From contig NZ_JAMXLV010000024.1 of the NCBI RefSeq assembly GCF_024054535.1, positions 62,001 to 126,000 of the forward strand: 64,000 nt of DNA. The letters are read 5' to 3'. The stretch is from Thermococcus alcaliphilus (lineage in GTDB: Archaea > Methanobacteriota_B > Thermococci > Thermococcales > Thermococcaceae). The position numbers and the translations under genes are program-made. The stretch's first letter is position 1. The number at the start of each line of letters is the position of its first letter. Below the pieces are notes generated by a model, which ran no database searches, was not told the origin of the DNA, and saw nothing but the letters and a program-made list of their open reading frames with translations. Positions 3,004-22,789 of the stretch are shown in pieces.

Positions 3004-3188
3004 ATGAATGGCGAAAAACCATCAAAAAGAGTGGAAGGAAAGATGGGAGCTAAGATTGAAGTGTCCCAACACCTAAAAAAGCTCAAAAAACAGAGGGAAA
3101 TCCTTGAAAAGACGTTTGGCATACTAAAAACCTCAAAAACGTGCGAGTCTTAGATACAAAAGAAGTTATGGAGCTTCTCCAAGACTAA
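3004..3188 (+). pseudogene. small antitoxin-like gene, frameshifted
   Basis: From ATG 3004, with AAGGA at 2994-2998 and a TATA-like ATATATTTAAA near 2958-2968, 49 codons run to TAG at 3151. The peptide is charged and helical (KIEVSQHLKKLKKQREILEKTF). If one base is restored near 3125-3135 the frame continues as KNLKNVRVLDTKEVMELLQD to TAA at 3186, giving about 61 residues. The helical, basic composition and size resemble archaeal RelB/VapB-type antitoxin tails, but no family is recognised. It is divergent from vapB and abuts the pilin gene tail to tail. It could be an intact 49-residue protein. Confidence 0.45.
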
Positions 3189-3550
3189 TCGCCCAAAACG
3201 TAAACTATCGCTTTGCAAGAGTCCAAGTCGTTCTCGTAGATGCACTTGTTGTAGGCGTTTTCAAGGGTGTCCGAGTATGTAAAGGTTGAGTCGTCTATGG
3301 CTTTTGTCTCCCCGTTGAACTCGCACTGACCGTTGGAGCAGGAGATGGTTTGGGTTTTGAGGGATTCCCATTGACCTCGGGCTTTTAGATGGTTGATAAG
3401 TGTCTGAGCGTTGCTCTGATAGGGTAGCTCTTTTGTCCCTTCGCTTACTTCACTCGCCTTCGAGGAAATCAGCAAGATGACAACTAGAACGACAATGACA
3501 GCAAGAGCAACCATTGTTGAATACTCAATGGAAGCTTGGGCTTTTTTCAT
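3185..3550 (-). CDS. class III signal peptide protein, type IV pilin-like
   Basis: The ATG at 3550 is preceded by GGTGAT at 3555-3560. The N-terminus MKKA-QASIEY is the class III signal (cleaved before Q, E at +5), followed by one long hydrophobic helix (about residues 10-30) that builds the pilus core. The remaining ~90 residues form a soluble head with four cysteines (SCSNGQC, NKCIYEN, DSCKAIV), likely two disulfides. The mature protein would be processed by the EppA/FlaK-type prepilin peptidase. It is the shortest of three pilins in a row and differs most from the other two. Confidence 0.85.
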   Translation of the reverse strand: MKKAQASIEYSTMVALAVIVVLVVILLISSKASEVSEGTKELPYQSNAQTLINHLKARGQWESLKTQTISCSNGQCEFNGETKAIDDSTFTYSDTLENAYNKCIYENDLDSCKAIVYVLGD

Positions 3551-3626
3551 TTGGATCACCAAAAATAATTTTAATTAATTTGGCTCACAAAAACATCAAA
3601 AAGAAAAGATAAATTCAAAAAAACTA

Positions 3627-4076
3627 TCATGGCGCTCCCAACTTAATATCATCTCCAATATCAACAATTATTTCACATGCTGTAGCGTCGTTTTCTACCA
3701 TACATTTATCGTATAAACTTCCTAAGGTGGGCGTACTGCTGATTAGTGTCGAATAGGGAGCAGCACTGTAATCTTTATCTGCTTCTGCATAAGCCACAGT
3801 ACCATTCGTATCCTTCACTAAAAGATAATCATTGGTGGAGTCGTACTCTACCGTATACTGATCATCCCATACATTTTGTGAAACGAGCTTGCTCTTTATA
3901 AGTTCCACTTGACTCTGCAATGAAGCTATATCGCTCTGTGAGCTGGCCTGTTGTGTAGATCCACTGATGTACCTAACCACAACAAATATTATTATCAAGG
4001 CTGCTGCTATCATGAAGAGGTACTCCAGCGCACCCTGACCCTTCTTCCGTTTAAACAACTTCTTCAAGTTTATCAT
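3627..4076 (-). CDS. class III signal peptide protein, type IV pilin-like
   Basis: 149 residues with a basic leader MINLKKLFKRKKG, cleavage before QGALEY, and a hydrophobic helix (LFMIAAALIIIFVVV). The head starts with a coiled-coil-prone SSQSDIASLQSQVELIKSKL and ends in a conserved-looking LYDKCMVENDATAC that matches the end of the next pilin (LYDLCLAGDENAC). GGAGGTG at 4087-4093 serves the ATG. Probably a structural pilin; the secretion operon at 16.4-22.4 kb is a plausible exporter. Confidence 0.85.
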   Translation of the reverse strand: MINLKKLFKRKKGQGALEYLFMIAAALIIIFVVVRYISGSTQQASSQSDIASLQSQVELIKSKLVSQNVWDDQYTVEYDSTNDYLLVKDTNGTVAYAEADKDYSAAPYSTLISSTPTLGSLYDKCMVENDATACEIIVDIGDDIKLGAP

Positions 4077-4127
4077 TTTCTCTACACCTCCGAAAGGATA
4101 TCTTCAAAAACAAATTACGTCAAAGAC

Positions 4128-4141
4128 ATATAAATACCTTT
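4128..4141 (-). promoter_or_regulatory. promoter of the middle pilin gene
   Basis: On the minus strand GGTATTTATATGTC sits about 52 bp upstream of the ATG at 4076, predicting a start near 4107 and a ~30-nt leader holding the GGAGGTG site. This suggests the pilins are not one simple operon. Confidence 0.5.
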
Positions 4142-4194
4142 CCCCGCAATTATGCCGATCACTTCCGCAAAATTGCAGGTGAATGCGACAAAAA

Positions 4195-4680
4195 CTATTG
4201 AGGAATCCACAACGACTCGTCGAGGGTTATTATTACCTTACAAGCGTTTTCGTCACCTGCAAGGCAGAGGTCATACAGCTCTTTCAGGGTTTTCAGCTTA
4301 TACCTATCGTCCCCATAGAGGGCTTTAACATCATCCCTGTATCTTGCATTTCTGTAGTCGAGGTAGTAGATAACCTTGTCACTCTTATCACACTTCCCAT
4401 TTGAGCCTTTGCCCTTTATGCTTATGCCGTATTCGGAGCCAACTTTGTCCTTGGAATAACTCTCCGAGAGAATGTAAAAGCAGTATTCATCGTTCCAGAG
4501 GTCTTTCACTTCTAGCTGGGATTTTGCAATCTCCGCTTGGCTCTGCAAAGAGGTAATATCACTCTGCTGGGCAACTCGACCTCCGGAATTGCTGATATAG
4601 CCCACTGCAACAAAAATTATTATCAATGCCGCAGCAACCATAAAGAGGTACTCCAATGAACCTTGACCCTTTCGGCTCAT
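4195..4680 (-). CDS. class III signal peptide protein, type IV pilin-like
   Basis: 161 residues. Very short leader MSRKG, cleavage before QGSLEY, hydrophobic helix LFMVAAALIIIFVAV, then QQSDITSLQSQAEIAKSQL, nearly the same as in the middle pilin, so these two are paralogues. The head is longer and has cysteines at positions compatible with two disulfides (FYC/CYF region, GKCDK, DLCLAG, NACKVI). The start is 3 codons before the K-G-Q motif, and the TATA at about 4704-4716 would give a very short leader. Confidence 0.85.
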   Translation of the reverse strand: MSRKGQGSLEYLFMVAAALIIIFVAVGYISNSGGRVAQQSDITSLQSQAEIAKSQLEVKDLWNDEYCFYILSESYSKDKVGSEYGISIKGKGSNGKCDKSDKVIYYLDYRNARYRDDVKALYGDDRYKLKTLKELYDLCLAGDENACKVIITLDESLWIPQ

Positions 4681-4716: not shown

Positions 4717-4758
4717 TCCCCAATTTTGCCCATGAGATAAGCAAAAATGGGGATAGCG

Positions 4759-5301
4759 ATGCTGGTCTTCATAGAGTGCGAGTCATCGAGCATTGAAGGC
4801 TGTTTAAAGGAGCTTAGAGAAAAAGCCGAGACCTTAAAGAAAATCCCCGGAAGAATAGATAAAGCCAAGATAGAGCTCTCCTTCGGTGCCTTTATGAGTG
4901 TTAGAATAAGCCTAAGCATAGAGCCAGACAAAAACTATGAGAAGATGATAGTAGCCGAGTACTCATCAGGCAAGGATGTCCTCGAAAGGCTGCAAGAGAA
5001 GATGAGAGAAAAGCTAAGGAACGCCCAAATAGTTGACTTCACCTTCGGAACCTACACGATGCCCATAACCCGAAGAAAATATGCCGTAGGGATAGCGGTT
5101 GTGAACATACCCAAGGAAAGGGAGAGCTTTGAGAACCTGAGCATTAAAGAAAGGAGGGCAATCCTGAGAAAAGCCCTCGAGCTTTTTGGCTGGAATCCAA
5201 AGGTTTTGAACATCTCCGAGATAGCGAGGCTCTTCAACGTTTCGAGGGATTCAATCTACAACGACATAGAGCAGATTTTGAAGGAGTTAGAGGGTTTCTA
5301 A
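4759..5301 (+). CDS. HTH protein, possible pilin regulator
   Basis: About 180 residues. The C-terminal 30 residues form a clear helix-turn-helix (ISEIARLFNVSRDSIYNDIEQIL). The N-terminal 140 residues look like a mixed alpha/beta domain with an internal repeat: 'KIPGRIDKAKIELSFGAFMSVRISLSIE' and 'QIVDFTFGTYTMPITRRKYAVGIAVV', each followed by a helix. That domain is not recognised. The start at 4759 is preferred to the in-frame ATG at 4747 because GGGGA is at 4749-4753. It is divergent from the pilins across a shared AT box, so control of pilin genes is a natural guess but not shown. Confidence 0.75.
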   Translation: MLVFIECESSSIEGCLKELREKAETLKKIPGRIDKAKIELSFGAFMSVRISLSIEPDKNYEKMIVAEYSSGKDVLERLQEKMREKLRNAQIVDFTFGTYTMPITRRKYAVGIAVVNIPKERESFENLSIKERRAILRKALELFGWNPKVLNISEIARLFNVSRDSIYNDIEQILKELEGF

Positions 5302-9321: not shown

Positions 9322-10161
9322 TCATAAGTGTTCGTTGAATTTGTTTAATAACCATTCTCTAAGTTTATTTTGTTTCCTTGGTATTGTAAATCCAACTTCC
9401 TTGGCAAAACGTCTCACACTTTCTATGCGATATACCCTAAGCTCATAAAGGTCACTTTTGTAGGAGTATTGTTTGCCTCTGATCACAACAGGACTTCCGG
9501 CTTTCTTTGAAACCCTTATTTTTGAGTGTATTTCCAATGAAGCTAAGAGACTTTTAGAGAACTCTAATAGCTCTAAATCGTAGTTGTGCAACGAAACATA
9601 AGAAACTTTCTTAGTAGTTGGGTCTAAATAGACATAACCCTCACTGTCAAACAAACCCCGAAGGAACTCTCTGGGATATTCCTTTGCAACTTCAAACAAA
9701 GCATCTTTTGGCTGTTTCAAAAACATGTAGAGGGATTTAGTAGTACTTTCAACATACCATCTACCGACTCTTGTAGAGTCGTTCTCATAACCAACTCGGG
9801 GATTAGCCCCTATTTCTTCAAGAGCTTTGGCAAATGCCTCGGCAAATTCCCTATCCACAACTTTCAACCGAATTCTGTACTTGTATTTTTGGCCAATGCC
9901 TATTGTGGCATCTCCAAAATAAGCTCCCAAGATATAAGACAAAGCTGGAGAAGGGCTTAAATCAAGAAGCTTGATTTTATTGAAAGGTTCATGTTTTCGC
10001 TTGCACCATCTTAAAACCGTTGCTTTGGAAATTTTCACGCCTTTTTCGATAAGTACTCTTTCCACTATTTCCGAATAACTAAGTCCGTAATTCCTCAGCC
10101 CCCTGACATAATTCACAAGCTCCTCAAGTTCCTTTTGTCCAAGGTCTTTTACCCTAAGCAT
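9322..10161 (-). CDS. free-standing LAGLIDADG homing endonuclease-like protein
   Basis: 279 residues. Two LAGLIDADG helices: LSYILGAYFGDATIG at 74-88 and EFLRGLFDSEGYV at 165-177, each with the metal-binding acid (D84, D172). The first ~55 residues form a helix-turn-helix (LSYSEIVERVLIEKGVKISKATVLRWC). This monomeric two-motif form with HTH is common for archaeal intron- or intergene-encoded nucleases. The gene lies opposite to and 23 bp beyond the initiator tRNA, with no intron visible, so it may home into tRNA flanks. GGTG precedes the ATG. It could alternatively have been domesticated as a regulator. Confidence 0.88.
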   Translation of the reverse strand: MLRVKDLGQKELEELVNYVRGLRNYGLSYSEIVERVLIEKGVKISKATVLRWCKRKHEPFNKIKLLDLSPSPALSYILGAYFGDATIGIGQKYKYRIRLKVVDREFAEAFAKALEEIGANPRVGYENDSTRVGRWYVESTTKSLYMFLKQPKDALFEVAKEYPREFLRGLFDSEGYVYLDPTTKKVSYVSLHNYDLELLEFSKSLLASLEIHSKIRVSKKAGSPVVIRGKQYSYKSDLYELRVYRIESVRRFAKEVGFTIPRKQNKLREWLLNKFNEHL

Positions 10162-10278: not shown

Positions 10279-11103
10279 ATGGATCTGGTAGTTCTCGGGC
10301 ATGTTGCGATTGACCACATAATCTTTCCAGACAAGAGAGAGATAGTTCTCCCGGGAGGGGCAGCTGCCGCTGTTGCAACTTCTGCCGCTCTAAGTGGAGC
10401 CAAAGTGGGGTTGGTTACAAAGGTCGGGAAGAACTTTCCCACGGAGTGGCTGAAAAACCTTGAAAGAATCCTAGACATTAAGGGAGTGCACGTTCTCGAA
10501 GGAAAGACAATGCACATATACATGATCTACCACGAAGACGGGAGCGTCGATGCGCCGGTGGAGATAGGAGTGGCAGAGAAGATGGGTGAAACAGAGATTC
10601 CGAAAGATTACCTAAACGCGAAAATATTTCACATCTCTCCAATACCACCGGAAGAGCAGCTAAAGGCGATAGAAAGACTAAAAGGCAAGAGGGTTACCCT
10701 AGATTTCAACCCGACTTACATAGAGGAATACAAGACAAAAAGAGAGCTCATGAAGGATATAGTGTCAAAAGTGGAGATAGTTTTTCCAAACGAAAGAGAG
10801 GCAAAAACGATAACCGGAGAAAAGGACATCAAAAAAGCTGCCGAAAAGCTTCACAAATGGGGAGCTAAAATTGTCGTGGTGACTATGGGAGAAAAGGGGG
10901 TTCTGCTTTATGATGGGAAAGATTTCAAAAAGTTCAATGCACTTCCAGTAGAGGAAATCGTGGATCCAACCGGAGCTGGGGATGCTTTTGCTGGCGGCTT
11001 TCTAGCTTATTATGCAAGAGAAAAAAACCTCGAAGAGTGCATAAAGCAAGGATTGATGAGGGCAAGAGAGGTGCTTAAGAAAAAAGGAAGCTGGAGCATC
11101 TAA
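10279..11103 (+). CDS. PfkB-family carbohydrate/nucleoside kinase
   Basis: 274 residues with both PfkB signatures: the N-terminal GHVAIDHI and PGGAAAAVATSAALSGAKVGLVTKVG, and the C-terminal DPTGAGDAFAGGF whose Asp is the catalytic base. The family phosphorylates sugars or nucleosides with ATP or ADP. The substrate cannot be read from sequence; Thermococcales have several such kinases (nucleoside, ribose-1-phosphate, inositol). TATA-like CCTTAATAAACC at about 10240-10251. Its stop overlaps the end of the converging membrane gene by 4 bp. Confidence 0.9.
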   Translation: MDLVVLGHVAIDHIIFPDKREIVLPGGAAAAVATSAALSGAKVGLVTKVGKNFPTEWLKNLERILDIKGVHVLEGKTMHIYMIYHEDGSVDAPVEIGVAEKMGETEIPKDYLNAKIFHISPIPPEEQLKAIERLKGKRVTLDFNPTYIEEYKTKRELMKDIVSKVEIVFPNEREAKTITGEKDIKKAAEKLHKWGAKIVVVTMGEKGVLLYDGKDFKKFNALPVEEIVDPTGAGDAFAGGFLAYYAREKNLEECIKQGLMRAREVLKKKGSWSI

Positions 11104-11513
11104 TCACTTGTGACTATCCTTGAGAATACATAGAGGGCAATTAGAATAAGAACGGCAACTGCAGTGACCTCGAACTTGGGCATGACCAAAGAGAGCCCCA
11201 TTATGAGGGCGTAGGTAGGAATGGCCAATAGAGAAGCTACGGTCAAGATTAAATAATGCTCTCTGGGAGCTTTTTCCCTATCTAAGTAAGCGGACTCAAT
11301 AAAGATTAAGGCTAAAGCCACTATTAGAACTCCCAGAGCACCTCCTATCTTGTAATATACCAGAAAGCCTATAACGGCCATCAAAAACAATGTGCCAAAG
11401 AAATACGAGAGAAACGCCAGGGGAGCAAGTGCTAAGACCGGGAGGAGCTGTTTGTAGCTAAGCAAGATGAAAAACAAGATTACAAGCGGTATCGGTGAGA
11501 ACTTTATCCTCAT
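11100..11513 (-). CDS. small polytopic membrane protein, end of MoxR operon
   Basis: 137 residues that are almost entirely hydrophobic, with about four or five membrane segments (IPLVILFFILLS, LALAPLAFLSYFFG, LFLMAVIGFLVYY, VALALIFIESAYLD, AVLILIALYVFSRI). No family recognised. It overlaps the DUF58 gene by 4 bp and is the last gene of the MoxR cluster, so it is probably part of the same envelope machine. Confidence 0.8.
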   Translation of the reverse strand: MRIKFSPIPLVILFFILLSYKQLLPVLALAPLAFLSYFFGTLFLMAVIGFLVYYKIGGALGVLIVALALIFIESAYLDREKAPREHYLILTVASLLAIPTYALIMGLSLVMPKFEVTAVAVLILIALYVFSRIVTSD

Positions 11514-12745
11514 AACTTAATCACCTCTGCAATGGCGCTTCTAAGAGGCTTTCTGGTGTCCCAATCTATTATCAGGGCATAGGCGGAAAGCTTCCTCAAG
11601 TATGCTTTCCTCTTGAGGTCTAGCATCTTAACCGCCAGTTCTTCCTCTTTGCTTCTTGGCTCGATAGCCGAATACGGGTCCGGGGAGATCACTATTATCT
11701 TGTATCCATAGTGATAAATCATCTCAAGGGCTTTTCTGCTCTCCTCGCTAACAAGGGGTGAGATGTAGATTATTTGGGCATTTGCAGGAAAGCGCGTCCT
11801 TATAAGATGTTCAACCTGATAGGCAATTAGATTGTTTTTATCCGGCCTGGCAGTGCTTAGAATGTCGACACATCTGAAGAAATGCCTTTTTCCATAATCT
11901 ACCCTAGCCCATAGGGGGACGCTCTCCGAAAGCAAAAGACCAAAGCTCGTGCCGTTTTTAAGACAGTCAAGCATAAGGGAAGCAGCAGCCCTCACAGAGT
12001 AGTCTATAACTCTGCCCCCCAAATAGCCAGCGTCCACTATTATCACAACATCAACTTTTCTCTCGCTCTCATACTCGTTGCTCATTATTTTGCCCATTTT
12101 TGCCGTTGCCTTCCAGTTTATTATCTTGAAAGGATCTCCAGGCTGATATTCCCTTATAGCATGAAACTCTACTCCTTCACCTATTCTCGGAGATGGCAAG
12201 GGGCCAACGGTTATTTTTGTACCCTTTGTGGAGTAAGGAGTGATGACATCTTCTATGAGCGGAACACCAATAAGCTCATCATACAGCTCAACCACTTTGT
12301 CCCTTTTGAAAAATCCAAATGGATCTTGGTAGCTCAAGTATATCCAGTTAAACTCATGAACCCCTCTGCGTACCCTAATCTTGTAGGAAAGCTCTCTCAC
12401 TTCATCTTTTTTTAGGGAAAGCAAAAACTCGTTCTTACCTTCAACAACCTCAAGCTCCTCTGGTGTGCCATCCACAAGCTTTAAGCTTGGAATTCTTTCG
12501 TTGGACTTTATGGTAAGTTTTATTTCCACGGTTTCTCCTTCAAGAATTCTGTCGTGAGGCAGGATTCTCTTAATCTCCACGTCAAGCCTTGGTTTAAAAA
12601 ATGCAACCGCTATGAAAAACAGCCAAAGTATCGGAAGGACAAGATATACCATATCCCAGCGAAGAGTAAAGAAAGTTATGAGTACCCCTATCCATAGGGC
12701 AAGAAGAAGCTGAAGGGCTTTTCCAGTCGGGTAGAACTCCCTCAT
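11510..12745 (-). CDS. DUF58 / von Willebrand A-like membrane protein
   Basis: About 411 residues from ATG 12745. Two N-terminal membrane segments, then a beta-rich domain (RILEGETVEIKLTIKSNE) and the DUF58 signature GVEFHAIREYQPGDPFKIINWKATAKMGKIMSNEYE, leading into a VWA-like fold with VDVVIIVDAGY. DUF58 proteins work with MoxR AAA+ ATPases in metal insertion or complex assembly in the envelope. It overlaps or abuts its neighbours on both sides. Confidence 0.92.
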   Translation of the reverse strand: MREFYPTGKALQLLLALWIGVLITFFTLRWDMVYLVLPILWLFFIAVAFFKPRLDVEIKRILPHDRILEGETVEIKLTIKSNERIPSLKLVDGTPEELEVVEGKNEFLLSLKKDEVRELSYKIRVRRGVHEFNWIYLSYQDPFGFFKRDKVVELYDELIGVPLIEDVITPYSTKGTKITVGPLPSPRIGEGVEFHAIREYQPGDPFKIINWKATAKMGKIMSNEYESERKVDVVIIVDAGYLGGRVIDYSVRAAASLMLDCLKNGTSFGLLLSESVPLWARVDYGKRHFFRCVDILSTARPDKNNLIAYQVEHLIRTRFPANAQIIYISPLVSEESRKALEMIYHYGYKIIVISPDPYSAIEPRSKEEELAVKMLDLKRKAYLRKLSAYALIIDWDTRKPLRSAIAEVIKL

Positions 12746-12750
12746 AGCTA

Positions 12751-13704
12751 TCACTCAAACTTTGGAACGGGTATTTTTTCAAGCATTCTCTCCATCACCA
12801 TCTCCTGGCTTACCCGAGTATACCAAAGCTCCCTCTTCAGTATGAGCCTATGACTTAGTGCAGGTATGGTAACTTTCTTCACGTCATCTGGGATAACGTA
12901 GTCCCTGCCTTCCAAAGCAGCGTATGCCCTCGAAAGCTTGAGCAATGCCAAGCTCCCTCTTGGAGACGCTCCAACTTCAATTTCCTTTTTGTTTTCTCTA
13001 GTTGCCCTCACTATCTCGGTTATGTATTCAAGAACGGCATCGCTCACATAAACATCCTCAACTGCCCTCTGCATCTCTACAACTTCTTCAGCGGAGGTTA
13101 TTTGGTTTATATCCACTTCTTCTTTCTTTCTCTCGATCCTCCTCTTGAGAATCTCAAGCTCCTCCTCCTTGGTCGGGTAACCCACTCTGAGCCTGACGAG
13201 GAATCTATCGAGCTGTGCCTCTGGCAGGGGATATGTTCCCTCTTGCTCAATCGGGTTTTGGGTGGCTATTACGACAAAGGGCTTCTCAAGCTGATAGGTT
13301 TTCCCCTCTATAGTTACCTGCCTCTCTTGCATAGCCTCAAGCAAAGCCGATTGAGTCTTTGGAGGCGCTCTGTTGACCTCATCGGCGAGAAGTATGTTTG
13401 TAAACACCGGCCCTTTTTTGAACTCGAATTCAAGGGTTTTCTGGTTGAAAACGCTAACTCCCAGTATGTCGGAGGGAAGTAGATCGGGTGTAAATTGAAC
13501 CCTTTTGAACTTAACTCCTAGTGCTGAGGCAAAGCTCTTTGCCATTAACGTCTTTGCCAATCCTGGTAGGTCTTCAATGAGAATGTGCCCATCGGCTAGT
13601 ATTGTTGCAAGCATAAGCTTTAGGACTTCTCTTTTTCCAACTATTGCCTTTCCAACTTCATTTAAAATCTCATTTCCTTTTTCATAAACTTCCTCTACTC
13701 TCAT
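12751..13704 (-). CDS. moxR: MoxR-family AAA+ ATPase
   Basis: About 317 residues. Lid and core motifs of MoxR: 'GKAIVGKREVLKLMLATILADGHILIEDLPGLAKTLMAKSFA' contains the Walker A variant; Walker B is LLADEVNRAPPKTQSALLEAMQERQV; sensor 1 is IATQNPIEQEGTYPLPEAQLDRF. A chaperone-like ATPase working with DUF58 proteins. The ATG at 13704 is chosen for GGAGG at 13719-13723; ATG 13710 is closer to it. The 5' end overlaps the upstream membrane gene. Confidence 0.93.
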   Translation of the reverse strand: MRVEEVYEKGNEILNEVGKAIVGKREVLKLMLATILADGHILIEDLPGLAKTLMAKSFASALGVKFKRVQFTPDLLPSDILGVSVFNQKTLEFEFKKGPVFTNILLADEVNRAPPKTQSALLEAMQERQVTIEGKTYQLEKPFVVIATQNPIEQEGTYPLPEAQLDRFLVRLRVGYPTKEEELEILKRRIERKKEEVDINQITSAEEVVEMQRAVEDVYVSDAVLEYITEIVRATRENKKEIEVGASPRGSLALLKLSRAYAALEGRDYVIPDDVKKVTIPALSHRLILKRELWYTRVSQEMVMERMLEKIPVPKFE

Positions 13705-14110
13705 TAACATCCGCCTCCACAATTTCAAGAACTTTTTCGAGATCTTCAAGGAACTTGTTCCCAGAGCCAATTATTCTAAGCTCTCTAACCTTTGTTTTTG
13801 CCTTTTCTCTGTCCTCTTCAATTATTTCATATATCTCCAAGAGGGAATCAAGAACTATTTGCTTGGCAACACTGCCCTTTTTTGCCATTTTTATAACGTC
13901 TGCAAGCCTTTCAAAGTCCTCTTTCCTCCTCCTTTTCTGTTCTCCCCTTCTTGGAATATAAGGAAGCTCAGCCTCTTCGAGTATAAAAGCCAAAAGTATT
14001 GTTCCAGCTACTAAAACAGCTATCCACCTAACCAAATACGAACCTGCAAAGATTGCAACTAAGACGAAGGGGGTAGTTAAGATCAGGGCAAGATTAAGCC
14101 TCAACTTCAT
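13682..14110 (-). CDS. membrane protein of the MoxR operon
   Basis: 142 residues: two N-terminal membrane helices (LALILTTPFVLVAIFAG, IAVLVAGTILLAFIL), then a basic cytoplasmic segment (RRGEQKRRRKEDF) and a long helical coiled-coil-like tail ending ADVNESRGSL. It overlaps the downstream MoxR gene by about 23 bp and the upstream gene by 17 bp. No named family recognised; the tail may recruit the ATPase to the membrane. Confidence 0.8.
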   Translation of the reverse strand: MKLRLNLALILTTPFVLVAIFAGSYLVRWIAVLVAGTILLAFILEEAELPYIPRRGEQKRRRKEDFERLADVIKMAKKGSVAKQIVLDSLLEIYEIIEEDREKAKTKVRELRIIGSGNKFLEDLEKVLEIVEADVNESRGSL

Positions 14111-14933
14111 TTACATCCCCCTTGATTTTCATGTAAAGCTCATAAGCCTCCTTTGCATCTTCCATAGTGACTTTCTCCGGTGCGTATTTTGCTTTTTCAA
14201 AAAGCCTCGCAAGCTTTACATATGCATCGTGCTTGTATTTTACTTTCTCTGCATGCTCCCAATGAGTCCAGCTTTCTCTGTAAGGAATGCCCAAAAGCCT
14301 AAGCCAAATTACTGCATTCTTGTAAAGCTTCACCACTATTTCGTTTGGGTCTCCTAGGAAGTCTATACCTTCTTCCTCTAATTTTTTATCAAATTGTTCA
14401 ACGATCTCTTTAAGTTTTCTCCTTTCTCTAGCCGCTCTCAAATCAAGATAAAACCTCACCACAACATAGCTGAGGGTTATTACAAGAACTCCAAAGAGAG
14501 CATATAGGTAAACGCTACCTTCTGAAGACCCTCCAAAGGGATTTTGGAAATACCTCTCGTAGAAACTAACGTGATAACTTTGATTAACGTAGTAAATCCC
14601 CTCACTTCGGTTTGCTGTCATGTTTGGGAGGGGAGTTTTGTAAACCTTGTAGAGAATGGGGAGGGCAAGTATAATGGAGCCTATTATTATAGCGAGGAAG
14701 ATGCCCCAGTTTACACCGTATTCCGGACCTTTTTTCGCAAAAGGATCCCCAACAGTTAGGAAAATCTGGATTAGTATTATGCCCCCAAGAACTATCAAAA
14801 TAGCAAAGAAAAGGCCTATTAAGTAATAGTCTTGGTTGCCCTTCTTAATCTCACCTATTTTAGCTTCAGAGCTTACTATTGCGCCCATTAGCAGGATTAT
14901 CAGCAAGTATAAGGCCATTAGTCTACGCCTCAT
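14094..14933 (-). CDS. DUF4129-like membrane protein
   Basis: 279 residues. A signal anchor at the N-terminus, two further membrane helices (LIGLFFAILIVLGGIILIQ, GIFLAIIIGSIILALPIL), an outside loop with several N-x-S/T sites, a fourth helix (LYALFGVLVITLSYVVVRFY), then a cytoplasmic helical domain. Its end (GIPYRESWTHWEHAEKV...LARLFEKAKYAPEKVT) is the DUF4129 signature usually fused to transglutaminase-like proteins. It is the first gene of the MoxR-DUF58 operon. The TATA region is shared with the divergent DUF2118 gene. Confidence 0.85.
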   Translation of the reverse strand: MRRRLMALYLLIILLMGAIVSSEAKIGEIKKGNQDYYLIGLFFAILIVLGGIILIQIFLTVGDPFAKKGPEYGVNWGIFLAIIIGSIILALPILYKVYKTPLPNMTANRSEGIYYVNQSYHVSFYERYFQNPFGGSSEGSVYLYALFGVLVITLSYVVVRFYLDLRAARERRKLKEIVEQFDKKLEEEGIDFLGDPNEIVVKLYKNAVIWLRLLGIPYRESWTHWEHAEKVKYKHDAYVKLARLFEKAKYAPEKVTMEDAKEAYELYMKIKGDVNEVEA

Positions 14934-15865: not shown

Positions 15866-15919
15866 TGTTATAAAGCTCGTGGAGGAGTTAAGCTTGAAGA
15901 AATTTAGTTGGTGAAAAGA

Positions 15920-16402
15920 ATGAAAGTTGAAAAAGGAGATTTTGTGGTTTTTAACTACATTGGAAGGTTTGAAAACGGAGAAATATTTGATACAACTTAT
16001 GAGGATATCGCCAAGGAAGCAGGCATTTATGTGGAAGACAGAACATACGGGCCCCTTGGAGCTAACGTCGGTGTTGGTGAACTTATCCCCGGAATGGATG
16101 AGGCTCTTATAGGGATGGAAATCGGAGAAAAAAAGACTATAGTAGTTCCCCCCGAGAAAGGCTACGGGATGCCAAGGGATGACTTGATAATTGAGGTCCC
16201 AATAGTGGAGTTTGAAAAAGCCGGCATAGAACCAGTAGAGGGAGCGTACATAATGACCGATAGTGGAATAGCAAAGATAACTGCAATTACTGAAGAAAAC
16301 GTCACTTTGGACTTTAACCACCCACTGGCAGGCAAGACACTAACATTTGAAGTGGAAATAGTTGATATAGAAAAGGCAAAGCCAGAATCAGATGAATCCT
16401 GA
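15920..16402 (+). CDS. FKBP-type peptidyl-prolyl isomerase (SlyD-like, short archaeal)
   Basis: About 160 residues from ATG 15920 (GGTGAAAAG upstream). FKBP core: EKGDFVVFNYIGRFENGEIFDTTYED, then GVGELIPGMDEALIGMEIGEKKTIVVPPEKGYG, with the insert-in-flap chaperone domain (PIVEFEKAGIEPVEGAYIMTDSGIAKI) and the returning strand FEVEIVDIEKA. It speeds proline isomerisation and prevents aggregation in the cytoplasm. No signal peptide. The end overlaps the last gene of the pilus operon by 15 bp, tail to tail. Confidence 0.93.
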   Translation: MKVEKGDFVVFNYIGRFENGEIFDTTYEDIAKEAGIYVEDRTYGPLGANVGVGELIPGMDEALIGMEIGEKKTIVVPPEKGYGMPRDDLIIEVPIVEFEKAGIEPVEGAYIMTDSGIAKITAITEENVTLDFNHPLAGKTLTFEVEIVDIEKAKPESDES

Positions 16403-17308
16403 TATCTGAACCCTGGTAGCCACAAGGAATATCACAACTCCCAGTATGGCCAACATTGCGCTGTACTTGAAGCCTGCAGAGAACTTTCCTTCTCTTATTA
16501 TTCCAATTCCTAACCCCGAAACTATGGCTTGAAGTGCCACAAACGCAAGAGAAACGTTTTTTATCGCTTCTAATGGCAAGTTAAGTCCCACTTCAGGAGT
16601 GTTCATACCCCCCATAATTTGGGATACAACCCCTAGGATGAATGGCCCTATGAAGCCGCTTGCAATTATAAAGAACATTGCTTGCATTCCGGTTGAGGCT
16701 TTTCTCTCCTTTTTTATTCTCAGTATTTCACGGACGTCGTTGGCAACCGCCACAAGTACATCAGCCATTGGGGCTCCTCTCTCATAAGCCTCTAGGATAA
16801 TCATTGTGGAGCGATAAATTACCGAAGATCTCTTGTTTCTTATTGCAAAAGCTCTCAGGGCTTCTATTGTTGCTCTACCCTTCTTTATCTCCTGTACTGT
16901 TCTTTTGAATTCCTCTGTTAATGCTCCAAACCTTGCAGTTGATGCCTCCTCCAAAGCTTCAGAGAAAGAAACTCCAGCTCTCAAAGAGCTCGCAAGATAG
17001 AAGAAAGCATCGGGCAAGTTTTTCTCCATGTCTTCTATCTTCTTGGTCAGCAAATAATAGGGATAAACCCATGCAATCCCTAAAAACAAACCGAGGAACA
17101 CCGGGAGAGCATAGATCTTAACAGGGGACAGTATGAAAACTATTATCCCGACCAACCCTGCCAGCAATAAAGATACCAACAAAAATTCAAGCGCTAAAAA
17201 TGATATTCCCGCCGAGTATAGGAAGAGCTCGTACCTCCTAACCCACCTCTGGGGAAGTAGTTTTTCAAGAGCCTTTGCAAGAGGTCGGAGGAATTTAATT
17301 TCAGCCAA
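16388..17308 (-). CDS. TadC/FlaJ-like pilus assembly membrane protein
   Basis: 306 residues from TTG 17308 (GAGGTGAT upstream). Membrane pairs at the N- and C-termini flank a cytoplasmic T2SF domain with LPDAFFYLASSLRAGVSFSEALEEAS and RAFAIRNKRSSVIYRSTMIILEAYERGAPMADVL. This is the archaeal inner-membrane platform subunit. A second copy is encoded directly upstream, as in archaeal type IV pili where two TadC-like proteins form the platform. It is the last gene of the operon. Confidence 0.9.
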   Translation of the reverse strand: MAEIKFLRPLAKALEKLLPQRWVRRYELFLYSAGISFLALEFLLVSLLLAGLVGIIVFILSPVKIYALPVFLGLFLGIAWVYPYYLLTKKIEDMEKNLPDAFFYLASSLRAGVSFSEALEEASTARFGALTEEFKRTVQEIKKGRATIEALRAFAIRNKRSSVIYRSTMIILEAYERGAPMADVLVAVANDVREILRIKKERKASTGMQAMFFIIASGFIGPFILGVVSQIMGGMNTPEVGLNLPLEAIKNVSLAFVALQAIVSGLGIGIIREGKFSAGFKYSAMLAILGVVIFLVATRVQISGFI

Positions 17309-17314
17309 ATTTAA

Positions 17315-18376
17315 TCACCTCGGCTCACTACGTTTTATCATAAACACAACGAGGGTTGAAATAGCTGGGAACCCAAAGAGCAGAATAACAGCTAACCCTT
17401 GGACGGGCATTACTAACGCCCTAGTCATTAATGAAGCAGCCAGTATCGCCACAACGAATAGCGTTGGCATTATTATGGTTATGAACATATAGACAAAGGC
17501 GACACCGTTTACCTTTTGGATGTATTCCACAAGCTTCATTCTGTATTCAAAGGAAAAGTCTTCGGCAAGTTTGTAGAGAATATCCGCCAAGTTTCCACCG
17601 AATTTTGTGGCCCTAAGGATCTGTTTTACAACTCTACTAACGTTTTCGGACGCCATCCTCTCCTCAAACCTCATTAGTGCATCTTCAAAGGACGTTCCTC
17701 CGTGCATGTCTCTTATCATAAGGTCAAATTCCTCGGATATGGGACCATAATCCGCATTGGCAACCGATACCATTGCCTCAGCTATACCAACTCCAGCACT
17801 CAAAAGCGATGCCATGTGTCTCAAAACATATGGAAGGGCTTTTTCTACCTCTACAACCCTTCTTCGCCAGACTATTCTTGGATAGTTTCTCATATACAGG
17901 AACCCACCAATAAAGCCCAGTATCCCAAGCATCAGGGAGATGTCAACAGGCATGAGGAGAAGAACGCCCATTAAAAAAGCAAAAATTGCAGTGAAAATGG
18001 AAACACCCAGCATCAATGCAACGAACTGCTCTTTACTCATTTTAATGTTAGCCCTCACGAGATCATAGTCGAGTCCCTTTAGAGACTTTGTAAATGATTC
18101 AACCGGACCTCTAAAGTGCCTAAGCATAAATTCTGAGAATCTATGGGTGAAAGATTCCTCTAGCTCTCTTTTTCTCCATTCGACAATCTCTTCAAGTTCT
18201 TTTTCGTATTTTTCTTCTCTTTCCTGAGAGACTTCCTCTTGAAGTTTTTTCAGGAGTTGAAGTCTCTCTTGGAGCGTTAGGGTTTTAGGAATTCTTGAAA
18301 TAGGGCGTTCGCTAACCTCTATAGTTTTTTCACCCAGCCTTTCAATGAATTTAAGTATTTTCTCTTTTATCCCCAA
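17315..18376 (-). CDS. TadC/FlaJ-like pilus assembly membrane protein
   Basis: 353 residues from TTG 18376. An N-terminal ~100-residue cytoplasmic helical part (RLQLLKKLQEEVSQEREEKYEKELEEIVEWRKREL), membrane helices, then the T2SF domain (LPYVLRHMASLLSAGVGIAEAMVSVAN; SEEFDLMIRDMHGGTSFEDALMRFEERM) and C-terminal membrane helices. Platform protein that couples the ATPase to pilin insertion. It lies 6 bp upstream of its paralogue and 11 bp downstream of the ATPase. Confidence 0.9.
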   Translation of the reverse strand: MGIKEKILKFIERLGEKTIEVSERPISRIPKTLTLQERLQLLKKLQEEVSQEREEKYEKELEEIVEWRKRELEESFTHRFSEFMLRHFRGPVESFTKSLKGLDYDLVRANIKMSKEQFVALMLGVSIFTAIFAFLMGVLLLMPVDISLMLGILGFIGGFLYMRNYPRIVWRRRVVEVEKALPYVLRHMASLLSAGVGIAEAMVSVANADYGPISEEFDLMIRDMHGGTSFEDALMRFEERMASENVSRVVKQILRATKFGGNLADILYKLAEDFSFEYRMKLVEYIQKVNGVAFVYMFITIIMPTLFVVAILAASLMTRALVMPVQGLAVILLFGFPAISTLVVFMIKRSEPR

Positions 18377-18387
18377 ATCTTCTCACC

Positions 18388-20157
18388 CTAGATGACTGTT
18401 CTAACTTTTTCAGTTAGCTCAATTGAGGCATCCCTCTCTATTCTTCTCAGCAACTCTTCATGATCAATGTAGAATTCTCTAATGTAGTGTCCAACCTCTT
18501 CTATACTCCTTATTCCTTTCTCTACCATCCACTGGAGGACAACTTCTCTCTTCACTCTCTCCTCTAGGAGCTCATCCATTGTTAAACCTGTATGCTCAGC
18601 AAGCTGGTTCATGACCCTACTTGGCACTCCCGTGTGGTAAAGCTCATCCTTTGCTGGATTGTACTTATAGATAGTGTTCAGCTGGACGCTTTCCCTCTCT
18701 ATTCCGGAAACCTCAGCTATCTCGGTGATCCTTCTTATTGTTCCTTTCTTTCTGTTGTTGAACCTTACCTGCATTATGATGACATCCAAAGCAGGAATCA
18801 TGATTCTTGGAACGTTCATAGGTGGACTCTCAAGCCTTACTATTGTTTCTCTAGCTGAGTTAGAGTGAATTGTACCCATACAACCATCGTGTCCCGTGTT
18901 CATTGCCGTGAACATCGTTCTTGCCTCAGGACCTCTGACCTCACCGACGATAATTCTATCTGGACGCATTCTTAGGGTGTTCTTAACTAGATCATCCATG
19001 GTTATTTCTCCCTTTCCTTCTATGTTTGGAGGCCTTGTTTCAAGCCTTACCCAGTGCTCAATTGGTAACTGAAGTTCTGCGGTATCTTCAATACTTATAA
19101 CACGCTCACTTGGAGGAATGAACATTGCCAATGCGTTAAGAGTGGTAGTTTTACCCGAACCAGTACCTCCGGCAACGAGGACGTTCGCAGGCTTAACTCC
19201 AAGACCGTCAACAAAAACCCAGAGCAGAGATGCTATTTCTAAATTAAAGGTGCCATACTTCAAGAGATCAATTATCGTAAGGGGATCTTTTTTGAATTTT
19301 CTTATGGTTAACGTAGGTCCATCTAAGCTAACGGGTCTAATAGTCGCGTTTACTCTACTTCCATCAGGCAAACGGGCATCTAAGAGCGGGGTTTGCTGAT
19401 CAATTCTTCTTCCAACCTGCCTTGCTATGCGTTCAATAATGTTTAATATCTCCCTCTCGTCCTCAAAAACGATGTTAGTTTTGCACATGTAAAACTTTCT
19501 GTGCCACACGTATACTGGTCTTCTCGTTCCTATTACCATAACTTCTTCCAGGTTATCGTCTCTAACAAGGGGATCGAGTTTTCCGTAACCTATCATGTTC
19601 TGGACAACCAGATTTACGAGAATATCCATCCTTGCCTCGGAGATAGCCGGAGCAAGTTCACGCATTATGTTTTTTACAGCCCTTCCAAATATTCTTCTTC
19701 TCTCCTCCGGATCGGGAATGCTCTCGGGGTCTATTTGTATCTCTGCAATTGCCCTATCCCTAACGATTTTCACGAGTTTTTCTTCCTCTTCACTCAATTT
19801 TGGAAGGCGTATTTCATAAATTGGGATCGGTTCTCCCTTAACTCTAAGGATCCTCACATTTCCATATACATCAAGAACCTTCACTTCCTCTCCATAATAT
19901 GTAGGAAGGGGAACTCTTGGTGAGCCTCTTGTGGACTTCAAAATCTCCTCTAAGCTACTCCCTCCTCTGCTCTCAGCAGATAAGGATCTTGAAGGAGTTT
20001 TAATTTCTGGCACAATGGGGGATAGTTCTTCCTTGGCCTTAGGTTTTTCTTCTTCTCTTCGTCCTTCTTTTATTATATCTTCTAAAGGAGCCGCTTCTTC
20101 ACTTAAGATCTCTTCTATCCATGATAAGCCTGAACGTTTTTTCTTTTTCTCCTCCAA
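18388..20157 (-). CDS. type II/IV secretion (TadA/VirB11-like) ATPase
   Basis: About 589 residues. The first ~90 are low-complexity and charged (Ser/Pro-rich), then the hexameric motor: Walker A AGGTGSGKTT, Asp box SIEDTAELQLP, Walker B RPDRIIVGEVRG, His box TGHDGCMGTIHSNS. It powers pilus growth or export. TTG at 20157 is preferred for spacing from GGGTGA; GTG 20163 is in frame. The start overlaps the upstream gene by 59 bp, so translation is coupled. Confidence 0.93.
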   Translation of the reverse strand: MEEKKKKRSGLSWIEEILSEEAAPLEDIIKEGRREEEKPKAKEELSPIVPEIKTPSRSLSAESRGGSSLEEILKSTRGSPRVPLPTYYGEEVKVLDVYGNVRILRVKGEPIPIYEIRLPKLSEEEEKLVKIVRDRAIAEIQIDPESIPDPEERRRIFGRAVKNIMRELAPAISEARMDILVNLVVQNMIGYGKLDPLVRDDNLEEVMVIGTRRPVYVWHRKFYMCKTNIVFEDEREILNIIERIARQVGRRIDQQTPLLDARLPDGSRVNATIRPVSLDGPTLTIRKFKKDPLTIIDLLKYGTFNLEIASLLWVFVDGLGVKPANVLVAGGTGSGKTTTLNALAMFIPPSERVISIEDTAELQLPIEHWVRLETRPPNIEGKGEITMDDLVKNTLRMRPDRIIVGEVRGPEARTMFTAMNTGHDGCMGTIHSNSARETIVRLESPPMNVPRIMIPALDVIIMQVRFNNRKKGTIRRITEIAEVSGIERESVQLNTIYKYNPAKDELYHTGVPSRVMNQLAEHTGLTMDELLEERVKREVVLQWMVEKGIRSIEEVGHYIREFYIDHEELLRRIERDASIELTEKVRTVI

Positions 20158-20995
20158 ATTCACTCACCCTCATGAGGTTTTCCCATTTGACGTTATAGGT
20201 GATTTCAAGCTTATTACCTAAAAACACTATCCAAACCGGATAATCAAATTTTAGCTCAGGTTTTTTAGATGTCTTAACTAACTCTGGTTCTCCTTTACTC
20301 CCTGAAAGTAAACCAGTTCCAGAGGAAACAACTATCCTAGAAGAAAGTTCTGAGAGAGCATCTGAGCTTTCTTCAGATGTTCTGTCCAAATACCTAGGCA
20401 TGTACTCCCTAACGTATTGAGCGTATTGAGAAAGAACCGTATCAACATATTCACTGTATTTCATTGTGTACTCTGGGGTGAAGTCGCTCATTTCAGCCCC
20501 TTCAAAGAGTACCGGCACTCCTATGGCAATGTACTTTGAATTTTCGGGTGATGGATTTTCTATCGTTACTTCAACCCTTCCGCCGTACTTGAGCACCTTC
20601 ACATAACCATCCGAAATAAAGAATGTATCAACTGCATAATACTTCTGAGGATAGAGGATTAACTGAGGATAGATAGGGCTGTAAAATATGTTTGGACCTT
20701 CCACTCCGCTTATTGTGCCTGTGGATAAAGGTTCGTTAATCTTTACATTCACCTGAAGTGTCTCATATGGGGCAATCCAAAATCCCAAGTTGTTAACGAT
20801 TCCAATATCTTCACCCTTCCTAAACAAAGTGTAGTTATAATCAGGATTTATTAAAACAAATTTGTAAAACGGGCCCGCATTCACCAAGGTAACGTTTAGA
20901 TCGACCGTGGCGGATGCACTAACACTCTCTTGTGCATTAACTAAACCCGAAACTAGCAAAACAAGGAAAAAGAGTGGAAGCGTCTTCCTTAGCAT
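20099..20995 (-). CDS. secreted/anchored beta-rich protein of the pilus operon
   Basis: About 298 residues from ATG 20995 with GGGTGA upstream. The N-terminus is a signal peptide (LPLFFLVLLVSGLVNAQE). The rest is beta-rich and soluble (SVSASATVDLNVTLVNAGPFYKFVLINPDYNYTLF) with no further clear membrane helix, so it is probably outside the cell. No family recognised. Its position between a membrane coiled-coil protein and the ATPase, with overlaps on both sides, argues for a structural role in the pilus machine. Confidence 0.8.
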   Translation of the reverse strand: MLRKTLPLFFLVLLVSGLVNAQESVSASATVDLNVTLVNAGPFYKFVLINPDYNYTLFRKGEDIGIVNNLGFWIAPYETLQVNVKINEPLSTGTISGVEGPNIFYSPIYPQLILYPQKYYAVDTFFISDGYVKVLKYGGRVEVTIENPSPENSKYIAIGVPVLFEGAEMSDFTPEYTMKYSEYVDTVLSQYAQYVREYMPRYLDRTSEESSDALSELSSRIVVSSGTGLLSGSKGEPELVKTSKKPELKFDYPVWIVFLGNKLEITYNVKWENLMRVSEFGGEKEKTFRLIMDRRDLK

Positions 20996-21000
20996 TCCAG

Positions 21001-22404
21001 TCACCCAGCAATCTTTGTTATGTAGAGGGCATCTCTATATTTCAGTATATCCTCAACGAATTCTGCTGGGACTTCAACTATCACCAAGACCTTAGCAGTA
21101 GGTTCCGTAGCCAATAACCCAGTGCTTTGTTCGAGGTCAAACACCTTCCACTTGTACCTTGCGAGCTGCTCCTTAACTTCATCTGCCGCAGCTATCTTGT
21201 TGGCTGCAATGGCCTTTAATATCTCGTTTAGTGCAACATTGTACGTGTAGGATGCACTTATCGTCTGTGAACTTGATTGGGTTGTGGAGTGGCTTTCATC
21301 TTTATTCTGCTGGTATGAAATTGATTGATCTCCTGGGGCATAGCTCTCTGAGTATTGGTCTGAGTAGGAAGTTTCTGAAGAGGTTGCTATGTTCTTAGTT
21401 TCTTGCTGTGACTCTGATACTGCAATTACACCGGAATCTGTTAGGAAGAGAACCATGTTCACATATCCTTCATCCGCTATCTTTTGAACGGATGTTGAAT
21501 TTATTTGGGCGAAAATCTTTATTTTGTCACCTGATGAGAGGAAGGCACCATTAACGTTCTCTCTTGGCAAAACTAAAGCGACTTGCACCATTTCAGCTTT
21601 CTCTATTGTGTACTGGAGAAGCTCAGTGAAGTCCGTAACTTTGCTGAGCATGTACTTCGCTTCTGCTTTCGTGTATATGCTCTTTTCCGCTCCTTTCTTG
21701 AGGATCACCTTTTGGGTGGGAGTGGTGTCTATGAGGTAATAATAATATTTCCTCCAGAGCTCAAGCAGATACGGATTGGGATCAATTAAAGATACTTCAT
21801 CTTTTGTTTTTGCAGAATTAACTTTCTCCTTTAATTGGTTTAGAGTTTGAATAGCCTCACTCTTTATATCTTCCGGGAGAGGCTGAGAAAGAAGGAGTTC
21901 AAAAGATTGCTCTATTTGTGATAACTTTGTGCTCTTTGCCTGTTGAAGCTCCTTCTGAAGACGTTCTTGCTCCAATTGAGCTTTTCTTTGCTCTGCTATC
22001 GCCTTGACATTTATCTTCTCAAGTTCCTCTATACTTTTTGCTTGGTTAATTTGCTGTATTAATTGCGCTTTCATGGTATCATTTTCAAGCTCACCAGTGA
22101 AATACTGGTTAACCTCTTTAATTTTCGCAAGTTTGGCTTCTTGAAGCTGTTTTGCAGCACGATTTTGATAGGTTGTGTACACCCCTATGATAACAGCAAT
22201 GAGAATGACAGCTATAATAGATGCACCTATAATTATCCTTTTACGTCTCTCCCTTTCCCTAAGCCTTCCCAATCTTGAAGGCTTTCTGGGAGGGGAAGCT
22301 CTTGGGACAGGAGCAGCAGGGGCTGCTTTCTCCTCTTTCTCCTCAACAGAAACTCTACCCAACTCCCTTAAACGCCTTATTTTTTCTTCAATATCTTCCG
22401 CCAC
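21001..22404 (-). CDS. single-span coiled-coil protein of the pilus operon
   Basis: About 467 residues from GTG 22404 (GGTGGTG upstream). N-terminal ~50 residues cytoplasmic and Ala/Pro/Arg-rich, one membrane helix (IIIGASIIAVILIAVIIGVYTTY), then a long coiled-coil with repeated QLQEAKLAKIKEVN / AQLEQERLQKELQQAK pattern, and a beta-rich C-terminal domain. A Ser/Gln-rich stretch (SQQETKNIATSSETSYSDQYSESY) is in the middle. First gene of the operon. It could be a scaffold across the pseudo-periplasmic space. No family recognised. Confidence 0.85.
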   Translation of the reverse strand: MAEDIEEKIRRLRELGRVSVEEKEEKAAPAAPVPRASPPRKPSRLGRLRERERRKRIIIGASIIAVILIAVIIGVYTTYQNRAAKQLQEAKLAKIKEVNQYFTGELENDTMKAQLIQQINQAKSIEELEKINVKAIAEQRKAQLEQERLQKELQQAKSTKLSQIEQSFELLLSQPLPEDIKSEAIQTLNQLKEKVNSAKTKDEVSLIDPNPYLLELWRKYYYYLIDTTPTQKVILKKGAEKSIYTKAEAKYMLSKVTDFTELLQYTIEKAEMVQVALVLPRENVNGAFLSSGDKIKIFAQINSTSVQKIADEGYVNMVLFLTDSGVIAVSESQQETKNIATSSETSYSDQYSESYAPGDQSISYQQNKDESHSTTQSSSQTISASYTYNVALNEILKAIAANKIAAADEVKEQLARYKWKVFDLEQSTGLLATEPTAKVLVIVEVPAEFVEDILKYRDALYITKIAG

Positions 22405-22789
22405 GGTCAGCACCACCGGATAATATTTAACTTCTCTTAAACTAAGAGTCCTAGTAAATATTTTAGGCTTCATCCCTTATTTACCTTTTGGTGGTGGATG
22501 GTGGAAAAGCTAATAATAAAAGCTGTAGAGATTAAAGGAAGGTGCCCGGTATTCAAGGTCGGGGATAAGGTAGTTATAGAAGGACCAAAAGTCAACTTAA
22601 AAGAGACTGATGCAATCTGCACCCATGCATTTGCGTCTTTCCTCCCCTACATAGTGGCACTGCGAAAAGGAATTAAGGCTTCAGAGATAGGACTTGGGAA
22701 AGGAGAAAAAGCCTATGTGCAGTGCCTCGACCCCGGACCCCCGTACACGGATGGAGGAACGGTAATATTTGAAATAACGGTGATACGGA

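Follow-up and report, generated by a model that had tools for sequence, protein, structure and literature searches.

How type IV filaments cross an archaeal envelope that has no outer membrane is poorly understood, and a five-gene operon of Thermococcus alcaliphilus raises the question of which proteins could guide such a filament through it. The operon lies on the minus strand of a stretch of 64,000 nucleotides (nt; contig NZ_JAMXLV010000024.1, positions 62,001 to 126,000; hereafter, the window) and comprises five open reading frames at 16388-22473, encoding, in this order, a DUF515 protein, an exported protein of 301 amino acids (aa) denoted here beta301, an ATPase, and two platform proteins. 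We consider it likely that these genes encode the envelope-embedded engine of an Epd (EppA-dependent, clade 1) pilus, equipped with a guide ring similar to that of the RcpC protein and with an envelope partner. The kind of pilus is known, and what is newly recognized is the candidate for an RcpC-like ring together with a partner that belongs to no known family. The homology between DUF515 and RcpC is well supported, and a ring function is what we infer for DUF515.

Organization and conservation of the operon

The genes of the operon are:

21001..22473, minus strand: DUF515 protein, a single-span stalk protein, very probably RcpC/CpaB-related (Pfam DUF515, E = 3.5e-130)
20099..21004, minus strand: beta301, an exported beta-rich protein of 301 aa, kept in Thermococcaceae and adjoining DUF515
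18388..20163, minus strand: pilus assembly ATPase of the VirB11/TadA type, 591 aa, without an intein (T2SSE, E = 4.6e-50)
17315..18376, minus strand: platform protein 1, 353 aa, one T2SSF domain (Pfam)
16388..17308, minus strand: platform protein 2, 306 aa, one T2SSF domain (Pfam)

The T2SSE match of the ATPase and the T2SSF matches of the two TadC-like platform proteins (Pfam, E = 2.8e-17 and 9.6e-23, one domain each) bear out the pilus operon proposed in an earlier note that a model had made on this DNA from the sequence. That note described the genes as joined by overlaps, which holds for three of the five (4 nt between genes 1 and 2, 65 nt between genes 2 and 3) and fails at the last two junctions, which are gaps of 11 and 6 nt. 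It also counted two unrecognized proteins, of which one turns out to belong to DUF515 and beta301 still has no family. The observation of the five-gene operon is partly confirmed, and its earlier interpretation is partly supported. The DUF515 protein is 490 aa long from the first ATG and 467 aa long from a GTG at 22404, and either start is possible. The last operon gene and a convergent gene (15908-16402) overlap at their ends, and a divergent gene (22498) is separated from the operon start by 24 or 93 nt depending on the start codon chosen. A scan for sigma-70 promoters gave no excess (10 found vs 12.6 expected), with a consensus that is bacterial and unsuited to an archaeon.

A gene-neighbourhood survey, one of the checks proposed at the outset, recovered DUF515, the ATPase, platform 1 and platform 2 in the same order in all 20 Thermococcaceae loci compared (18-20 kb, from other genomes), with beta301 between DUF515 and the ATPase in 18 of them. 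Such a fixed gene order implies that the operon is not a chance arrangement. DUF515 is present in 92 of the 94 Thermococcaceae genomes and in none of the 21 genomes of sister families; beta301 is likewise found in 92 of the 94, and in 88 the two genes are same-strand neighbours on one contig. Among the other six genomes, G041 and G094 have no beta301, G090 and G106 carry both genes on different contigs, and G057 and G086, which account for the two DUF515 misses, contain pieces of beta301 at a contig end, their assemblies lacking DUF515. A few copies of DUF515 are interrupted. In loci L055 (8912-10325) and L057 (9089-10520), where the rest of the operon has open frames, the gene is split between two frames, and decay, sequencing error and a two-piece protein are all possible; the copy in L178 (G091) has three in-frame stops and that in L190 (G090) has one.

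In 15 of the 20 loci (L048-L067), the frame of the ATPase is longer than 800 residues, with a large, intein-sized in-frame insertion that the window copy does not have, and the ATPase matches are interrupted near query residue 329. An intein has been reported for this group of ATPases (PMC4390880; this and the other papers are cited for those parts of their text that were available), and the long frames with a break near residue 329 are as expected from it. In addition to its operon copy, genome G114 contains two tandem ATPase matches (G114:C29:1674-4646; 61% and 58% identity) in open frames of 1097 residues, perhaps a double ATPase.

Relationship between DUF515 and RcpC/CpaB

RcpC, which is anchored by a single membrane span and binds the secretin, assembles as a dodecamer whose pore measures about 5 nm (PMC12307814). 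The corresponding parts of the DUF515 protein are:

22168..22236, minus strand: membrane span, residues 80-102 of 490 (one long hydrophobic stretch, by reading of the sequence)
21004..21600, minus strand: outer domain resembling D2 of RcpC (model residues 221-419, discontinuous; VIA-align rank 1, 9gzr)

Structure prediction, which had also been proposed as a check, gave RcpC (9gzr) as the top match of the DUF515 model and no assignment for the beta301 model. The AlphaFold model of DUF515 (419 residues, pLDDT 77, pTM 0.61) folds into a helical stalk (2-179) followed by an alpha/beta domain (184-419). VIA-align superposes 85 residues of it on RcpC residues 126-236 at 3.2 A, with 13% identity and Z 9.1; the second row, at Z 8.3, is within 1 of the first, with rows 2 and 3 matching the helical stalk, and the best match to the outer domain other than RcpC reaches Z 5.4. 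In Foldseek, too, 9gzr is the top match (E 0.25, probability 0.93); another RcpC chain reaches 0.38, and none of the remaining chains among the 50 matches listed is above 0.14.

Sequence comparisons point in the same direction. The Pfam RcpC/CpaB family, PF16976, matches 30 of 52 singly scanned DUF515 proteins at E <= 1 (best 1.1e-8); of ten DUF515 proteins scanned in detail, eight list RcpC, with L076 exceeding the cut-off (35.4 vs 28.8 bits) and the other seven falling short of it, and the two that do not list it are the Thermococcal ones. The DUF515 alignment behind the profiles excluded proteins of at most 340 aa (104 of 105 kept), was reduced to 54 proteins by an 85% identity filter, and, after the very long methanogen proteins L099, L113 and L115 were left out by hand, comprised the window protein and 51 of the 54, with L057 represented by a 366-residue piece. 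Against nine CpaB proteins from annotated plasmids, the DUF515 profile attained an hhalign score of 36.3 (E 6e-4, probability 29%), compared to 19.7 for the reversed profile and a maximum of 16.9 in 60 column shuffles, and the methanogen DUF515 profile scored 33.9 (E 1.2e-3, 20%), compared to 19.1 reversed and a maximum of 20.4 in 60 shuffles. The aligned stretch is short, 30-34 columns around GAFLSSGDKIKIF in the window protein. Searches of Protein Data Bank (PDB) sequences with DUF515 (52 rows) and methanogen DUF515 (24 rows) remained at chance level (best E 0.16 and 0.22), with 9gzr absent.

Each of these lines is moderate on its own, and together with the position of the gene in an operon resembling TadA-TadB-TadC they make homology of the DUF515 outer domain to RcpC/CpaB highly probable. 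The earlier view that neither envelope protein is a known pilus part was half right, given that the outer domain of DUF515 is related to RcpC/CpaB and beta301 is without assignment; the note named clear homology of both to Tad, Ups or Aap components as the outcome that would refute it, and homology was found for one of the two, DUF515. Like RcpC of Pseudomonas aeruginosa (PDB 9GZR) and CpaB of Caulobacter, the DUF515 protein combines an N-terminal membrane span with an outer domain that superposes on D2. The two differ in that identity is 13% over the 85 residues and that the probable hairpin of DUF515 is inserted in the domain rather than placed after it: the protein ends at the last strand of the domain, with no C-terminal beta-hairpin after D2. 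In RcpC, loss of the C-terminal hairpin abolishes function but not co-purification with the secretin domain (PMC12307814). Because its probable hairpin is internal and none follows D2, we classify DUF515 as a relative of RcpC that may work alike, not as a member of the family. In a broader comparison with the Tad/Flp pilus (TadA, TadB, TadC, RcpC/CpaB), the Thermococcus operon shares the ATPase, two one-domain platforms and an RcpC-related single-span protein, and differs in the long helical stalk, internal segment and missing C-terminal hairpin of that protein, and in that the peptidase found is EppA. No secretin gene is present among the five operon genes; no secretin search was made.

Stalk, Ser/Gln-rich segment and beta301

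Three further elements of the DUF515 protein are:

22003..22146, minus strand: stalk unit 1, common to methanogens (hhalign 98.4%)
21775..21948, minus strand: stalk unit 2, a duplicate of unit 1 in Thermococci (hhalign vs unit 1)
21238..21417, minus strand: Ser/Gln-rich segment of 60 residues, probable beta-hairpin (near-constant length, Ser pattern, Pro-Gly)

The stalk unit of about 50 residues occurs once in methanogens and twice in Thermococci. Units 1 and 2 align at 97.4% (E 1.2e-11), with a score of 52.7 vs a maximum of 14.8 in 40 shuffles, and the methanogen profile matches unit 1 at 98.4% and unit 2 at 95%.

The Ser/Gln-rich segment (residues 353-412 of 490) is inserted between strands of the outer domain in Thermococci. 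Among 101 sequences from 92 genomes, it is 60 residues long in 91, 61 in five, 64 in two and 58 in one. Only the DUF515 copies of G041 and G094 have a segment of 20 residues, the range in the other 90 of the 92 genomes being 58-64. An initial set of 32 distinct 60-residue segments has Pro-Gly at positions 28-29 (P in 30, G in all 32) and Ser on alternate residues, the frequencies being 0.60 vs 0.23 for arm 1 and 0.60 vs 0.12 for arm 2, a contrast reached by none of 5000 permutations of column order; the segment sequences being related, this count is not a strict probability. Pairs of Ser are in excess at lags 2, 4 and 6 (393, 364 and 341 vs 265, 244 and 224 expected) and short at lags 1, 3 and 5 (219, 194 and 201 vs 274, 255 and 234). 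With 70 distinct segments the contrast is kept (0.56 vs 0.26 and 0.60 vs 0.12; P in 58 and G in 67). The AlphaFold model has strands at the ends of the segment and pLDDT <50 inside it, so the hairpin is read from the sequence pattern: the segment is probably a long beta-hairpin with one Ser face. That it is instead a flexible or glycosylated linker, with its shortening in two genomes and their lack of beta301 a single accident, would agree with the low-complexity composition and the low pLDDT and with the close relationship of the two genomes; we find this rather unlikely given the length of 58-64 residues in 90 of 92 genomes, the Ser period of two and the Pro-Gly at mid-segment.

The beta301 protein has a signal-like N-terminus and a beta-rich model (pLDDT 68). 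Neither Pfam nor PHROG gives a match to it at E <= 0.1, and its single NCBIfam row (E 0.037, far below the cut-off) is at chance level. The beta301 alignment consisted of the window protein, 35 of 51 proteins after an 88% filter, and L068; the beta301 scan of genome contigs comprised 3 loci. Scanned singly, the 37 rows of this set gave scattered Pfam matches (best E 0.0088) that point to no family, none listed PF16976, and comparison with PDB sequences stayed at chance level (best E 0.57). The beta301 model reached at best Z 4.7 in VIA-align and E 0.16 in Foldseek, with a probability of at most 0.54 (a cupin-like chain) among the 50 matches listed. A relation between beta301 and CpaB (profile score 21.6, reversed 11.8) was considered and taken as noise.

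All 90 genomes with a segment of 58-64 residues have beta301, and the two with 20 residues, G041 and G094, do not, although both genomes are rated 99% complete. This joint loss is suggestive of a partnership between the segment and beta301, and is not a statistic. In 7 of 20 methanogen loci, DUF515 is followed by a gene for an exported protein of 306-334 residues that resembles beta301 (split in L105). A profile of five of these proteins, with the split L105 copy left out, matches beta301 remotely (E 3.6e-5, 71%, 184 columns including the signal peptide), with a score of 42.6 vs a maximum of 24.3 in 40 shuffles, and the L068 protein does so over 35 columns (E 1.4e-4, 52%). Accordingly, the two genes are also found together at a distance from the motor genes. 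A prediction for Caulobacter places the CpaB hairpin against the beta-sandwich of CpaI, a protein that forms a bridge to the secretin (PMC13170226); by analogy, beta301 could play a CpaI-like bridging part.

DUF515 in methanogens and alternative roles

DUF515 is found in 77 and the ATPase in 78 of the 80 genomes of one methanogen class (that of G116); a search of the methanogen phylum (151 genomes, via G116) gave DUF515 matches at E <= 1e-15 in 5 genomes, all of one genus, and Methanocaldococcus jannaschii, the positive control, has a DUF515 match. The neighbours of DUF515 in methanogen loci (L069, L100-L117; names by reading) include MreB-like, ExbB/ExbD-like, RNase HII-like and sortase-like genes, as well as lipid-head genes resembling archaetidylserine synthase and decarboxylase. 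Some methanogen DUF515 proteins (L112, L113, L115) reach 661-735 residues and have long N-terminal extensions. A published table lists the protein OG0001177 of pseudomurein-containing methanogens with the InterProScan label RcpC/CpaB (PMC11915815). This protein, having the same neighbours (MreB-like, sortase E), is probably the methanogen branch of DUF515, and the available text of that paper mentions neither DUF515 nor Thermococci nor the motor operon. The methanogen half of the RcpC link is already in print as an annotation, and we did not find the link to DUF515, Thermococci or the motor operon in the literature.

Several observations weigh against a guide ring in the pilus engine. DUF515 has neither an ATPase nor a platform gene within 4.5 kb in any of the 18 loci of the G116 class and is found near cell-shape and surface genes instead of a pilus motor, and DUF515 and the ATPase do not always occur together, with only the ATPase in G179, G186 and G188 and only DUF515 in G126 and G173. 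The RcpC link is carried by the methanogen members of DUF515: PF16976, scanned singly, has no match in the window protein or in the Thermococcal proteins L026 and L060. The hhalign probabilities of 29% and 20% over 30-34 columns are low, as is the significance of the Foldseek match (E 0.25). The RcpC hairpin is C-terminal, whereas the DUF515 segment is inside the domain and has pLDDT <50. Finally, G041 and G094, with DUF515 proteins 85% identical, are close relatives, so that the loss of both segment and beta301 is likely to be one shared event.

One alternative is that DUF515 serves generally as a scaffold of the envelope or of cell shape, has an RcpC/SAF-like domain, is placed in a pilus operon only in Thermococcaceae, and anchors wall or S-layer processes without guiding a filament; the MreB-like, ExbB/ExbD-like and sortase-like neighbours and the occurrence of DUF515 without the ATPase in 2 of 80 methanogen genomes speak for it. 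We regard such a scaffold as improbable, given the fixed place of DUF515 in the motor operon in 20 of 20 Thermococcaceae loci, the pilus ring protein as its best match, and the sister families without DUF515, whose ATPases are at most 35-42% identical among the matches listed. A slimmer chance can be given to a stator-like clamp. In the archaellum, ArlF and ArlG have such a role, clamping to the S-layer, and DUF515 with beta301 might similarly hold the platform rather than surround the filament; that an exported beta-rich partner adjoins a membrane-anchored protein is in keeping with this, but the domain match is to a ring.

Type of pilus

The T. alcaliphilus genome has two ATPases of this type, the window copy and one in an archaellum-type operon (L046, contig C20; gene names by reading), which are 34% identical. 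The ATPase of the window operon is related to that of the archaellum, but the separate operon on C20 rules out that the window operon is the archaellum itself. The placement of the ATPase in a clade relies on pairwise identities and published trees (PMC4858521, PMC6668835). The window ATPase is 48-57% identical to the methanogen ATPase, which is single-copy in 78 of 80 genomes of one class (gene content fits Methanobacteria); in the sister families of Thermococcaceae, where 15 of 21 genomes have a match, identities are 35-42% among the matches listed.

As the earlier note rightly observed, the operon has no pilin or peptidase gene, and both are present elsewhere in the genome. An EppA gene is on another contig (PF06819, E 5.4e-30, at G000:C18:81817), with a 64-residue pilin-like gene directly upstream (by reading). 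Contig C22 has pilin-like genes beside FtsZ-like and cyclase-like genes (by reading), an association given by Makarova et al. for clade 1 loci of Thermococci (PMC4858521). Possible substrates are also encoded in the window, about 12 kb from the operon:

3185..4680, minus strand: three genes with class III signal peptides (pilin-type), outside the operon (PF04021; the 3185-3562 gene is below the cut-off)

Their products read KGQ-GSLEYLF, KGQ-GALEYLF and KAQ-ASIEYST, with Q at +1 and E at +5, and class III pilins with Q at +1 and an acidic residue at +5 also occur at L043 and L045 (by reading). This is the pattern of EppA substrates (PMC4187195). A gene divergent from the three (4747-5301) has weak helix-turn-helix matches and is a possible regulator.

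In Methanococcus maripaludis, the genes for one ATPase and two platforms, mmp0038-0040, are located apart from eppA and the pilins and are reported, as unpublished data, to be necessary for piliation (PMC4187195); epdJ, K and L were also recovered in a transposon screen for transformation (PMC10133366). With that precedent, the lack of pilin and peptidase genes in the Thermococcus operon is not odd. The two systems share a locus with one ATPase and two platform genes and have EppA and the pilins with Q at +1 and an acidic +5 elsewhere in the genome. They differ in that DUF515 and beta301 are in the Thermococcus locus, mmp0038-0040 being compared by published description only. Taken together, the ATPase identities, EppA, the pilins and the locus layout fit the motor locus of an Epd (clade 1) pilus. 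A role of the operon in the export of proteins or the uptake of DNA, by way of a pseudopilus, is very unlikely: the family includes such machines and M. maripaludis needs its pili for transformation (PMC10133366), but the genome has EppA and several EppA-type pilin genes and the M. maripaludis counterpart makes surface pili (PMC4187195).

A model of the pilus engine

The preferred reading, an Epd engine with an RcpC-like guide ring, translates into a simple model. Under this model, pilins whose genes lie elsewhere would be processed by EppA and pushed into the filament by the ATPase and the platforms, and the outer domains of DUF515 would oligomerize into a ring around it, as those of RcpC do. 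The length of the stalk, one unit in methanogens and two in Thermococci, would determine how far the ring stands from the membrane. Contact with the outer face of the envelope, presumably the S-layer, may be made by the hairpins and beta301; the bacterial counterparts in this place are the RcpC hairpin with the secretin, or the CpaI bridge. Such an archaeal machine would possess a guide ring but no secretin. A bolder variant, which we think unlikely, is that 12 hairpins, if DUF515 is dodecameric like RcpC, close into a Ser-lined tube of 24 strands, with beta301 as a collar, that serves as a substitute for the secretin. The arms of 27 and 30 residues, with Ser on one face, would then carry the pilus through the pseudo-periplasm and the S-layer.

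According to Denise et al., Tad descends from an archaeal system of the Epd kind that gained the secretin (PMC6668835); the available main text of that paper names RcpC once, counting it as an accessory in its Tad model. If DUF515 corresponds to RcpC in archaea, the system brought the ring with it and gained the secretin outside that ring, so that the guide ring may be older than the bacterial outer-membrane pore that it serves; transfer in the opposite direction, from bacteria to archaea, is also possible. Should the tube exist, the ring would likewise predate the secretin, which would have replaced the tube when an Epd-like system entered bacteria and became Tad. A relative of RcpC fixed in the motor operon of Thermococcaceae puts a candidate guide ring on the archaeal side of the Epd-Tad split, in agreement with the proposal that Tad arose in archaea, and provides two genes for deletion in an archaeon amenable to genetics. 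No paper tying DUF515 or Thermococci to RcpC was found in a literature search that most subscription papers lay outside of, and the available text of PMC5898192 does not mention DUF515.

Other features of the window

Genes for a MoxR-type AAA ATPase, a DUF58 protein and a DUF4129 protein lie on one strand at 11100-14933, and relatives of DUF4129 and MoxR are again found beside the pilus operon in several of the 20 Thermococcaceae loci. The window also contains a transposase gene of the IS605 OrfB type (938-2149) and a stand-alone LAGLIDADG gene (9322-10161).

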